NCBI GenBank assembly: GCA_016946835.1
Contig: JACVTC010000108.1
Coordinates: 562,501-626,500 of the forward strand
Reading direction: 5' to 3'
Length of the DNA stretch: 64,000 bases
From: Neocallimastix lanati (nom. inval.)
Lineage: Eukaryota; Neocallimastigomycota; Neocallimastigomycetes; Neocallimastigales; Neocallimastigaceae
The position numbers and the translations under genes are program-made. Within the stretch, counting starts at the first letter, position 1, and every line of letters starts with the position of its first letter. Positions 19,664-54,266 of this stretch are shown here, one piece after another. The notes beneath the pieces were generated by a model. The model saw only the letters and a list, made by a program, of their open reading frames with translations. It did no database searches and was not told where the DNA came from.

Positions 19664-20291
19664 TGTAACGGAGGTGCTTCTATTGTAACGGCGGGACGGG
19701 GTATAGAAACACACAAAAGAAGAAAACTCAATAGGTTTACACTATCTGTATAAATAATTCGTTTTATTAGAAATATTTTTTATTAATTATAAAATTTAAA
19801 GTAATTATTAATATTAATCAACAAGGTAATATTTCGAATTACTTATACGTTAATTATTATTAATAAAAGCACGAAGAAAAATATTTTCATTCGTGAAGTT
19901 CGCACTATTTATACTTTTAACGGAAAAACAGTTTTAACATGTAAAAATAATTTTAAAGAAATATTTAGAAATATGTTTTTAATAATTAATAATGTAAAGT
20001 TTCTAGAATATAGATTTTAATTGATGAAAATGAATCTTATCAAAAAAGAATAAAATAATTTATATAATAAGAATTTCTAAATTCATTTTGGTTGAATTAC
20101 GAACCGAAAGAATCTTTAACTTTCTATAATTTTATACAGAAAGAATATTCAAGAAGATATTATTAATAATTAATAAAATAATTAATAAAATAATTATTTA
20201 TGCAAAATGGGTTGAGGTGTGAGTCGAACCCATTAAGTATTGGTCATCGTCAATGTAACTAACCATTGAACCAAAGTTCTAATTTTACTAA
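19664..20291 (-). mobile_element. LTR I (relative of the F LTR), cut by a nest of insertions
   Basis: The minus-strand LTR lies from 20291 leftward to TGTAACGG at 19684, and its first bases are displaced to 54253-54266. Homology to the F LTR: the tRNA-like module, TATAAATAG (minus, 19913-19905), then the primer-donor segment GTGCTTTTATT (19872-19862). Beyond the LTR, the minus-strand sequence ATAGAAGCAC (19683-19674) corresponds to the self-priming site, followed after a few bases by a second CCGTTACA at 19664-19671. So a scrap of internal sequence remains. Reassembled length is about 630 bp against 586 for F. Older than F, judging from their divergence. Confidence 0.78.
20220..20273 (-). promoter_or_regulatory. 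tRNA-like module with A and B boxes in LTR I
   Basis: On the minus strand, TGGTTCAATGG (20273-20263) and GGTTCGACTCA (20230-20220), with starts 43 bp apart. The A-box sequence is identical to that of the F LTR although the surrounding LTR has diverged. The insertion nest starts at 20291-20296, 18 bp upstream of the A box. No full cloverleaf can be drawn. Confidence 0.65.
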
Positions 20292-20296
20292 CTGTG

Positions 20297-21227
20297 TGTA
20301 AAGAATAATAATTAATTTTTATTAAAATAAAAAATAATTATTAATCTTTATTAAAATAAAAAATAATTATTAATCTTTATTAAATAAAATAATAATTATT
20401 TAATAAAATTTATTAACTTTATTATAAAATATTTTTAATATAAAATTATTATTAATAATTTAAAATTAATATTGTAAAATTATTATTCTTTATCATTGTA
20501 TTAATTAATAATATTAAAATAATTAAACATTAATATTTTTTATATTTGTTAAAATTCATCTGATAATTATATGTTAAGTTTTAATTTAAATAATTGTTAC
20601 ATTAATATAATTTTAAACAAATCTAATATAAATTATAGAATTATAATTTAGAAATAATTATAAAATTATATTAAAATCATAATGTAACAAATCAAATGAA
20701 AAAAGAATAATTAATATTTAAAAAATTAATTAAAATAAAACAATGTCATGTATAATTGACATTGTTTAAATAAAACAAATGTTAATTGAAGTTTTCCGAT
20801 TGGAAAATATCGGTTTTTATTCAATTAACATATGATCAATTTTATTAATAATTGATCATTAAACTTTTTAGGTTTTTCTCCCAAATCTTTTCCTAAAAAG
20901 TTATTCATTAAGATTTGGAACTTTACTATAAATAATTCTTGATTTTCTTTATTTTGAAAATCAAGAGTTATTATTATAAGAATATAATTATAATAATAAA
21001 CAAAATAAATTTTTAATTTTTTAAAAATAACAAAAATCTAAATAAAAATTATTTTTAATAAAAAATATTTTAATAAAAATTTTATTTGAACTAATCTCTT
21101 ATAATAAACTCCTACCCTATTTTAAGTTTCGTTAAGTATTTTCTTTTTTTTTTAATTTCTCGATTAATATTAGTATTAATTGTAGAAAAGGGTTAAATTT
21201 AATTAAGTTTAAATTTAATTCTTTACA
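20297..21227 (+). mobile_element. Solo LTR E (relative of the D LTR)
   Basis: 931 bp with perfect 10-bp terminal inverted repeats (TGTAAAGAAT...ATTCTTTACA), flanked by CTGTG at 20292-20296 and 21228-21232. It shares with D the block of TATAAATAA then TCAAGAGTTATTATT and the TTTTTCTCxCxAATCTTTTCCTA segment. No internal region. Confidence 0.88.
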
Positions 21228-21232
21228 CTGTG

Positions 21233-22197
21233 TGTAAGAATCTATAATTATTTTTAAATAAAATAATTATATTTTCTTAGTTAAGTTATAATTATAACTT
21301 TATTTAATTATATAATATTTATTCATTTAAATATTATTAATAATTTATTAAACTCAATATTAAATAATCATTAATTTAATACAACAAATTTATTTAATTA
21401 ATTATTATTTATACATTTATAAATAATTATAGTTTATTTAATTATATATTTAATTATTAAATTTATTAGTCTTAGTTTATTCATTTAATTAAATTGTAAA
21501 CAAATATATTATGTATTCTAATATGTACTTAATAATGTATTCTGTATTTTGTTTATTAATATCATTATTATGTTATTTTCCTTATTTGTAAATTTATGAT
21601 TTTATGGTCGAAATATCTTTTATTATTTTATTCTTTTATTTTCGATCAATTAAATTAGATTAGTTAATCGGTCAATTAGGGTTTTTCCCAATCACTTTTT
21701 AAAAGTAATTGGTTTTACCTAATTGATACGATGATCGATATGGATAGAATATCGATCAAAAATCTTATCTAGGTTTTTCTCTCTAATCTTTTCCTAGATA
21801 AGAGATTTGTTAAGATTAGAAAACATTTTTTAATTTAACCTTATTTTTCAAAAAAGTATAAATAAAGCTCTTGAATTCTCTTTGAGAAATCAAGAGTTAT
21901 TATTATAACAATTATAATATAGTAATAACATTAATAAATTTTTTATATTTCTATTTTAATAAAGTAAGTTTTAATAAAAAACAAATTTAAAAAAAAATAA
22001 AATAAAATAATCTTTTCTCTTTGACTATTTTGTGTTATTAGTTTATTATAATTAGTTATAATAAACTCTCTCTTATAGAAGATAAGTATATTTATCTTTT
22101 TTTTTGTTTTCTCAATTTAATAATAATTATTATATAGTTATTATTAAGTTGTAGTTAATAATTTAATTCTAATTAATTTTATAATTAAATTATTACA
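21233..22197 (+). repeat. Element D 5' LTR (965 bp)
   Basis: TATAAATA at 21857-21864. The primer-donor segment AAGAGTTATTATT at 21892-21904 lies where transcription would begin. Terminal TGTAA...TTACA. Confidence 0.95.
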
Positions 22198-53437: not shown

Positions 53438-53460
53438 CTTGAGTCTTAGCGGGGGCATCT

Positions 53461-54248
53461 TAATATAGAATGAACAAATAATACTAATTGTGCTAGAATA
53501 ATATAAATTATTCTAACCTTATAGATTATTCTATTCTATATAATTGGAACTTTCCAATATTCTTCAAATATTACTAAATAGAAATCTTAAGTTAATAAAT
53601 CACTAATTAACTTATAATTCCTTTTTGAATTATCGAACCGATTCCATTATAATGTATTAAAAATCTTTAGCCAAGAATATTGTCCTTGCCCACTTAATAT
53701 ATTAATATTATATTTCTTTTGTATTATGTTATATTGAAAATAATCAAATCTATTTAATTAGTTATTAAAATTTTCGTTATCAATTTAAATTTATTTTTAA
53801 TTACTAAATTTAACTAAACCACAATAAAATATTCTGTATAATCTCTTTATTTTTATTTTATATATATTAGTATTAAGCTATTATTAAATAATTAATAATT
53901 CAATAATATATAACTACTATTTATAACAATAATATTATTAACTAAAATAATAATTCAATTTCAATTTAAATGTTTTATTTATAAAAATAATTAGTAATTA
54001 GTTTATTAAAAAAATAGTTAGGCTTTACAAATTTTAATTTGATAAAAAAATATAAATACATGTAATTTTAGTGAAATAAAATATAATCAATAACTTTCTT
54101 TTTATTAAATAAATAATTATATTATTATTTTTTCTTTTATAAATTTAAATAAATAAATATTGATTTTAAAACAAATTATTTTTTTTATTGTAATTTTATT
54201 ATTTGTGTTAATTATTATTATATTCCTAAAATTATATGAACCATACCA
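53461..54248 (+). repeat. Element C 3' LTR
   Basis: 788 bp. Begins TAATATAG after GGGGGCATCT, ends CATACCA, followed by ACTT. Confidence 0.93.
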
Positions 54249-54252
54249 ACTT

Positions 54253-54266
54253 TAGGATTCGTTACA
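54253..54266 (-). repeat. Displaced start of LTR I
   Basis: On the minus strand it reads TGTAACGAATCCTA, matching the F LTR start TGTAACGAAACTC. With CAACTT and CTGT at the A/B junction (39355-39364) it completes the part of LTR I left of the nest at 20291. Directly beyond it is family-A LTR sequence. Confidence 0.72.

Follow-up and report, generated by a model that had tools for sequence, protein, structure and literature searches.

Ends of several LTR retrotransposon families lie at a narrow distance before the A box of tRNA genes and of LTR-borne tRNA-like modules in Neocallimastix lanati

Introduction

Among retrotransposons associated with Pol III promoters, Ty3 duplicates 5 bp of its target, and TRE5-A is a non-LTR element that enters about 47 bp upstream. 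Ty3 from Saccharomyces and Tj1 from S. japonicus are gypsy elements that, in the accessible portions of the papers cited here and below, are described to insert within a few bp of Pol III starts, on the upstream side (PMC5911963, PMC4600332). Tj1 generates 5-bp duplications and was reported to insert such that it shares the transcriptional direction of its target (PMC4600332). DGLT-A of the dictyostelids is a gypsy element without chromodomain that inserts on average 15 bp before tRNA genes (PMC5006619), in either orientation (PMC5911963). TRE5-A from Dictyostelium also enters A/B-box sites that lack tRNA context, located on an rDNA element (PMC5391098). Helenus and TRIMp3 (Kojima 2024) are non-autonomous, carry tRNA-derived A/B-box sequence in their LTRs and have 5-bp duplications in fungi; Helenus elements are TRIMs of 311-1263 bp, and the accessible part of that paper does not describe them as integration targets (PMC10886601). 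Hence, Pol III targeting (Ty3, Tj1, DGLT-A) and tRNA-like LTRs (Helenus) are already known separately, and in the literature searched we found no report that combines Pol III targeting with LTR-borne tRNA-like landing pads. We describe here a window of 64,000 nucleotides from N. lanati in which retroelements are stacked next to such an LTR-borne module, together with searches of the 199-Mb assembly.

Results

Eight LTR elements or solo LTRs lie end to end at 20297-54248, all of them within one solo LTR, termed I. The order along the window is as follows.

19664-20296, minus strand: main part of LTR I, a solo LTR broken by the stack; the left duplication of E forms its final 5 bases
20204-20280, minus strand: tRNA-like module of LTR I, with the A box at 20263-20273, the B box at 20221-20230 and a T-run at 20204-20207 (all read as reverse complement)
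20297-21227, plus strand (orientation arbitrary): E, solo LTR, duplication CTGTG/CTGTG
21233-27964, plus strand: D, full-length gypsy element, duplication CTGTG/CTGTG
27968-28935, plus strand: X1, solo LTR, duplication ACTG/ACTG
28942-29828, minus strand (inverted): D2, solo LTR of a D relative, duplication CTGTT/CTGTT
29833-30847, plus strand: X2, solo LTR, duplication CTGT/CTGT
30852-39354, plus strand: A, full-length gypsy element, duplication CTGT/CTGT
39365-47246, plus strand: B, full-length gypsy element, duplication ACTT/ACTT
47251-54248, plus strand: C, full-length gypsy element, duplication ACTT/ACTT
54249-54266, minus strand: 5'-terminal remnant of LTR I beyond the stack, the ACTT duplication plus TAGGATTCGTTACA

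The orientations of X1 and X2 were set by terminal similarity only. A preliminary description had proposed eight insertions in one 11-bp stretch, and this is confirmed: all eight duplications are exact and derive from the same 11-bp string. Its reading of the single duplications holds as well, apart from the right copy of A, which has to be read past a small deletion because the 3' LTR of A lacks about 6 terminal bases that its 5' LTR has. D, D2 and E are flanked by 5-bp duplications, and A, B, C, X1 and X2 by 4-bp ones. The window copy of LTR I (locus L011) aligns to positions 15-644 of the LTR I reference. Its flanks are unlike in kind, with an A-family LTR on one side only. By eye, its outer duplication is imperfect (ATTAT/ATTAG), and a sequence similar to the remnant at 54249-54266 adjoins the C copies L154 and L170.

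An intact tRNA gene within LTR I was rejected, since ARAGORN reported 0 tRNA genes in the window and Rfam gave no match over 12200-20400 even at E<=1. The LTR I module retains just A- and B-box-like motifs. None of the modules of I, F, J, K, M and locus L062 scores as a tRNA in Rfam, and promoter activity is therefore assumed from their A/B motifs.

Shared duplication letters allow part of the insertion order to be read. The D2 duplication CTGTT includes the first T of X2 and is itself split by X1, and the D duplication CTGTG includes the first TG of X1; the order is therefore X2, D2, X1 and then D/E, every newcomer lying on the module side of its predecessor. The duplications do not fix the order of A, B and C. 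The earlier proposal that each element entered at the boundary of the previous one stands for X2, D2, X1 and D/E; B and C entered at another position, more distant from the module by a few bp. As far as the order can be read, it agrees with a ruler that starts at the A box. LTR divergence was considered as a clock for the stack: the LTR pairs differ at 1 of 965 positions in D, at 10 in about 1,008 bp in A (12 with slightly shifted ends), at 2 of 559 in B and at 1 of 771 in C. By this measure A appears older than B and C, whereas the A-box ruler requires that B and C were in place before A. We judged the clock unreliable, because at several differing sites of A both letters also occur among other A copies, which suggests that conversion or recombination lies behind the differences.

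A second, independent case is found in element F of the same window.

12274-19242, plus strand: F, LTR element with chromodomain and without RT match, duplication CTAGG
12290-13357, minus strand: A-like solo LTR within the 5' LTR of F, duplication CATA

The LTRs of F bear a related tRNA-like module, whose A boxes are by manual count at 13381 and 18692, and the 5' end of the A-like solo LTR lies 23 bp before the F A box. F and one LTR I copy are about 5.3 kb long, with gag-bearing frames, gag and integrase parts and no RT match. Element G lies inside the coding region of an A relative, and its 5' flank shows neither a tRNA-like promoter nor an adjoining LTR end; the family has 272 termini.

Elements A, B, C, D and G contain RVT_1, RNaseH, H2C2 and rve in the Ty3/gypsy (Metaviridae) order RT-RNase H-integrase, and among solved structures the best sequence match of the A and D pol is Ty3 (7q5b). 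The Pfam Chromo domain is present in F and G and was not detected in A, B, C or D (E<=0.001). Two polymerase lineages occur at these sites, A/B/C with 4-bp and D with 5-bp duplications, which bears out the expectation of at least two lineages landing at LTR I. A-class elements have their 5' end towards the putative Pol III site in 11/11 cases found without choosing an end; a search with 3' ends yielded one 3'-facing C copy (L160), and for this reason we do not propose that elements with 4-bp duplications obey a strict rule of orientation.

We sampled 30 LTR I copies from 289 matches of an A-box 20-mer in the assembly; sampled loci were the first in contig order, not random, and some may duplicate one event. 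Thirteen of the 30 copies are broken at alignment positions 10-16 of 644, and two are broken elsewhere, one of them (L008) in addition to the hotspot break, so that 13 of the 15 breakpoints fall within 7 of 644 bp. The junction lies 21-25 bp before the A box in all 13 broken copies. A sharp peak and no even spread had been predicted for LTR I and LTR F; the sample shows this for I, and the single F case in the window, at 23 bp, agrees with it. At the insertion sites of LTR I itself, taken as control family, the rules used below for the outer flanks of families A-D (tRNA or tRNA-like promoter, adjoining LTR end) gave 0/27.

The same families occur at real tRNA genes. Next to seven broken LTR I copies lie sequences that share 92-100% identity with the regions upstream of tRNA genes, where they end 13-16 bp before the mature tRNA start; this is the same A-box distance as in LTR I and agrees with the peak predicted for tRNA genes, here in a sample. 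The window families A, B, C, D, E and X1 were found 13-21 bp before real tRNA genes, for example E (99.7%) 21 bp before a tRNA-Arg gene at L050 and X1 (99.5%) 14 bp before a tRNA-Arg gene at L059. BLAST matches below about 85% in the AT-rich LTRs, mostly low-complexity noise, were left aside except for D relatives aligned to the LTR end. Among 37 tRNA genes, 25 have an LTR-type end 11-22 bp upstream and 12 have none at this distance; the 12-17 bp bin holds 21 ends, any other 6-bp bin at most 7.

The outer flanks of families A-D point the same way. Nine of 70 flanks carry a tRNA or tRNA-like promoter, 44 adjoin another LTR end (scored on the adjoining end alone) and seven show neither at the 5' side. 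Shuffled controls gave 0% and 2.8% for the two classes, and the signal was gone when flanks were cut back by 30-90 bp; chance as its source was rejected on both controls. The promoter distance is 20-24 bp in eight of the nine strict matches; the ninth, L093, scored 30 bp because the script picked a second A-box match. Predicted tRNA-Ala and tRNA-Thr genes are among the landing sites, with the same A-box distance. Elsewhere, seven of nine duplication pairs of C are exact 4-bp pairs, and its target strings are TTTT, AATT, CCTA, CTTT, TTAA, ATTT and TCTT. Target strings thus vary by site (CTGT, ACTT, CATA, CCTA, ATTT and others), which argues for position, not sequence; a fixed target sequence was rejected on these differences.

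Two copies of a further type, LTR J (L066 and L114), locate the origin of the ruler. With the LTR boundary set by eye, their A box is about 15 bp away from where the LTR appears to begin. The insertions are not in the LTR but 7 and 9 bp outside it, which places them at 22 and 24 bp from the A box. At these loci the zero point of the ruler is the A box and not the LTR end.

Discussion

We show here that ends of several families lie in a narrow interval, about 20-25 bp before an A box, at tRNA genes and at LTR-borne modules alike. We consider it likely, with a probability of about 0.85, that in this fungus at least two gypsy lineages target Pol III start sites in the manner of Ty3, and that A/B-box modules in the LTRs of other elements serve them as mobile landing pads. 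These modules sit near the 5' end of the host LTRs. By analogy to Ty3, the integrase may be tethered by Pol III initiation factors (TFIIIB) assembled on the A and B boxes. With the A box as the zero point of the ruler, each new element would then insert between the module and the latest element and push older ones outward into an ordered stack. Both LTR I and LTR F would thus act as mobile landing pads, and the two loci of LTR J suggest the same for this type.

One string is the source of all eight duplications in the window, as would be expected if the elements preferred a certain target sequence, or a spot in LTR I that is AT-rich and free of nucleosomes, without any role of Pol III. However, other sites share the A-box distance and differ in their surroundings and duplications (CATA in F, seven strings for C), and cutting flanks by 30-90 bp abolishes the signal; this explanation is very improbable. 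A preference for the ends of other LTRs, by self- or cross-targeting of termini and with tRNA genes as secondary sites, would account for the 44 of 70 flanks that adjoin another LTR-type end, yet repeated use of one site itself yields adjacent LTR ends. Moreover, LTR I is broken on its 5' side in 13 of 30 copies, whereas on its outer 3' side no other LTR start adjoins in any of 20 flanks, the two LTR J copies were struck outside the LTR at the A-box distance, and real tRNA genes bear the elements at equal spacing. We therefore regard LTR-end preference as unlikely. The array might also stem from recombination or an assembly artefact, that is, ectopic exchange or misjoining of solo LTRs and elements, in line with the imperfect outer duplication of LTR I, the A-family LTR on one flank only and the apparently converted LTRs of A. 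Eight exact, separately interpretable duplications and the recurrence of like arrangements at other loci leave this origin with very little probability.

Targeting of Pol III start sites may explain how a large genome can accommodate many insertions and yet have its genes spared, and it would extend Ty3-like targeting to an early-diverging, repeat-rich fungus and to several families at once. More tentatively, and with somewhat less than even odds, non-autonomous chromovirus relatives (I, F, J and others) may spread Pol III assembly sites, and a second retrotransposon guild may depend on these pads as much as on tRNA genes. If so, the transposons would form an ecology of two tiers, where the promoter-like module of one transposon sets where others may live and the count of safe sites rises along with the transposons themselves. 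LTR-borne tRNA-like sequences would gain a consequence besides transcription. Hundreds of similar pads (the 289 A-box 20-mer matches), with and without insertions and with varied distance between module and LTR end, constitute a natural experiment, and it should therefore be possible to read from the genome both the ruler and any requirement for A and B boxes.

Compared with the described systems, as far as the accessible texts present them, the Helenus elements resemble LTRs I and F, whose A and B box motifs nevertheless stay under the Rfam thresholds for a tRNA; in contrast to Helenus (0.3-1.3 kb, no coding sequence), F and one I copy reach about 5.3 kb and bear gag. The targets found here are borne by other transposons, unlike the TRE5-A target. 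The DGLT-A spacing is similar to that of our elements (13-16 bp before the tRNA), and no Pfam chromodomain was detected in A-D, but A-class elements are not found in either orientation alike, with the 5' end towards the site in 11/11 cases plus the one 3'-facing C; unlike Tj1, they mostly point away from the target. As for Ty3 and Tj1, insertion is about 15 bp before the mature tRNA, here 13-16 bp for cross-matched and 13-21 bp for window families. The differences to both are that many families share one site, that one lineage makes 4-bp duplications, that targets are LTR-borne and that stacks form, so that tens of kb of insertions can accumulate at a single point, the mobile landing sites being the unusual part.

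Results

Eight consecutive LTR units occupy 20297-54248 of the window, each bordered by an exact duplication of 4 or 5 bp. The source of all eight duplications is the ACTGTCAACTT stretch of a single solo LTR I, and those of D2, D and E also include bases of neighbouring elements. Reverse transcriptase (RT), RNase H and integrase are encoded by A, B, C and D, which are full-length gypsy elements (the 3' LTR of A is without about 6 bases of its end); the other four, E, X1, D2 and X2, are solo LTRs.

Features of the window
4049-5587: CotH-domain protein, 100% identical over 98% of the query to a protein of Neocallimastix lanati, an anaerobic gut fungus and the host of this DNA
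12274-19242: element F
up to 20296: body of solo LTR I
20297-54248: stacked units; target duplications CTGTG (E, D), ACTG (X1), CTGTT (D2), CTGT (X2, A), ACTT (B, C)
54249-54266: terminal remnant of LTR I
54267-57000 and 57434-64000, minus strand: A relative
56661-63444: chromovirus G, splitting the A relative

The 3' LTR of the A relative stops at 54267, adjoining LTR I, and no continuation was found before 19664; the outer duplication of LTR I is imperfect (ATTAT/ATTAG). The stretch 6001-12000 is very AT-rich (GC 9-12%), and short repeats are densely packed in its 7800-11000 part.

LTR I, on the minus strand, begins with TGTAACG and carries motifs resembling an A box (TGGTTCAATGG, position 36) and a B box (GGTTCGACTC, position 79) as well as a T-run; no tRNA gene was predicted in this module by ARAGORN or by Rfam at E<=1. 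A related module is present in LTR F, and in the 5' LTR of F an A-like solo LTR is inserted 23 bp before the A box (duplication CATA). Further repeat-borne A/B-box modules, read by eye, were seen at L066 and L114 (LTR J), L139 (K), L147/L160 (M) and L062. By eye, LTR J starts with TGTAAT, able to pair with ATTACA directly before the T-run, and the LTR start recurs in its putative primer site ATGAAACC; self-priming is possible in J.

Genome-wide searches were run on the 199-Mb assembly, where the A-box 20-mer of LTR I has 289 matches (<=2 mismatches). Among the first 30, taken with up to 1.5 kb on either side, 16 are whole LTR I copies and in 13 the alignment begins at reference position 10-16 of 644. 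Breaks elsewhere occur in two copies, L025 (at 557) and L008 (at 84, alongside a second break at 13). Junction and A box are 21-25 bp apart in 13/13 broken copies, which show, by eye, about nine distinct termini; L010 and L028 have terminus and junction in common and may represent one event.

A search for tRNA genes with RF00005 returned 9,278 candidates, of which 63 are scored matches. All 30 loci cut out contain a tRNA-Arg(UCU) gene, and ARAGORN predicted 54 tRNA genes (Arg, Asn, Thr) in them, 47 with distinct upstreams; removal of 10 Arg genes directly behind tRNA-Asn left 37. An LTR-type end (TTACA, TATCA, TACCA or TAACA) lies 11-22 bp upstream of the tRNA in 25 of these 37 and is absent at that distance in 12; the 12-17 bp bin holds 21 ends, every other 6-bp bin up to 119 at most 7. 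Sequences adjoining LTR I in 7/13 broken copies (L002, L008, L009, L010, L012, L019, L028) also adjoin tRNA genes, at 92-100% identity over 385-394 bp, and stop 13-16 bp short of the tRNA. At real tRNA genes the spacing is 13-21 bp for window families A, B, C, D, E and X1, each of which lies upstream of one. On one contig (G000:C555:170732-399007), 34/63 scored matches lie within 230 kb, all on the same strand; those inspected are tRNA-Arg(UCU). Outside this contig many of the matches belong to tRNA-Asn/tRNA-Arg pairs with a spacing of about 14 bp, and insertions lie on the upstream side of the pair.

Starting from the elements, 5' termini (<=1 mismatch, both LTRs of each copy included) number 484 for A, 896 for D, 93 for B and 462 for C. 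Upstream flanks were examined for 90 (A 30, B 20, D 20, C 20), and 70 were left after removal of 20 that precede a 3' LTR (10 A, 5 B, 3 C, 2 D). Fixed motif rules, tallied on 71 rows of which one, from D, later proved internal, place an A box at 8-45 bp together with a B box in 9/70 flanks and another LTR-type end at 3-6 bp in 44/70. Shuffled controls gave 0% tRNA-like and 2.8% LTR-end flanks; with the test moved 30, 60 and 90 bp away, tRNA-like flanks were 0/71 each and LTR ends 2, 0 and 2. Among the remaining 17 flanks, eight have an end in common with another flank (for L064 and L118, 80% over only 71 bp), L109 lies above the Rfam tRNA cut-off and L062 is tRNA-like by eye. Seven of the 70 fit none of these categories; one of them, L146, adjoins a module at the opposite end (L160). 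Intact tRNA genes are predicted in three flanks (Ala-CGC; Ala-TGC and Thr-CGT, each with an intron). As a control, LTR I's own insertion sites gave 0/20 outer 3' and 0/7 outer 5' flanks under the same rules, with internal flanks removed and L008, L010 and L025 unusable at the 3' side. In the window, neither motif class was found at either flank of F or on the 5' side of G.

The A-box distance is 20-24 bp in 8/9 tRNA-like flanks and 30 bp in the ninth (L093), where a second A-box match was taken. The start of LTR J lies about 15 bp from its A box (by eye); at L066 and L114 the insertions of A and D lie beyond this LTR, at 7 and 9 bp, yet their distances to the A box are 22 and 24 bp. Since the A-box distance is kept outside the LTR, the reference point for insertion is the promoter, not the LTR end. 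With no end chosen beforehand, the 11 A-class junctions recovered all have the 5' end toward the Pol III site: those of A, B, C, X1 and X2 in the window, that of the solo LTR in F, and those at L019, L045, L055, L056 and L059. Of 20 3' flanks taken for C, 16 outer ones were left after removal of four internal ones: one faces a module (L160), 11 adjoin another LTR start (somewhat wider motif list) and two an LTR I/F remnant. D was seen in both orientations.

Bases shared among duplications give a partial insertion order. The CTGTT of D2 includes the first T of X2 and is split by X1, and the CTGTG of D includes the first TG of X1; thus the order is X2, D2, X1, then D and E, each newcomer having entered between the module and the preceding element. 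A and X2 have the same CTGT duplication, so that their relative order is unreadable from it, and the ACTT site of B and C lies a few bp further out. Paired LTRs differ at 10 positions in A, 2 in B, 1 in C and 1 in D. By this divergence A would be the oldest, which is at odds with insertion of B and C before A, and the conflict stands. Conversion in A's LTRs (30852-39354) is likely, because at several of the 10 sites either letter is present in other A copies; differences at such variable sites point to conversion or recombination, not age.

Discussion

We show here the position and spacing of the insertions, the families that LTR modules and tRNA genes have in common, a partial insertion order and a negative control. 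TFIIIC and TFIIIB would assemble on the LTR modules and, once assembled, could recruit the integrase. Among the open-licence papers listed in literature searches, none was seen to describe such targeting in anaerobic fungi or to treat LTR modules as insertion targets.

In F (15435-18341), parts of gag and of integrase are encoded, and no RT match lies between them. The I copy L171 likewise codes for parts of both, without an RT match or integrase core; it is the one copy read, covering 4.0 kb of an internal sequence of about 4.6 kb, with its frame cut by the stretch end. LTR starts are about 5.3 kb apart in both, for F as LTR spacing minus the inserted LTR, and for I from at least 19 pairs of module matches 5.2-5.3 kb apart (counted by hand among 100 places listed). 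The pair spacing suggests uniform non-autonomous families. F and I are reminiscent of Helenus, whose members are non-autonomous and have a tRNA-like LTR (PMC10886601); unlike those, they are larger and coding.

Pol identity is 44-67% among A, B and C, 31-34% between these and D or G, and 52% between D and G. Duplications of 4 bp border A, B and C in the window (exact 4 bp in 7/9 C pairs elsewhere), and D and E have 5 bp. For Ty3, integration through TFIIIB at 1-4 bp upstream of the start is described, some 15 bp ahead of the mature tRNA (PMC5911963, PMC5006619); for TRE5-A, A/B-box sites lacking a tRNA context are described as a further target (PMC5391098). A chromodomain is present in F and G, whose targeting was judged at one site each, and none was found in A-D; similarly, in dictyostelids the element that targets tRNA genes, DGLT-A, is one lacking a chromodomain (PMC5006619).
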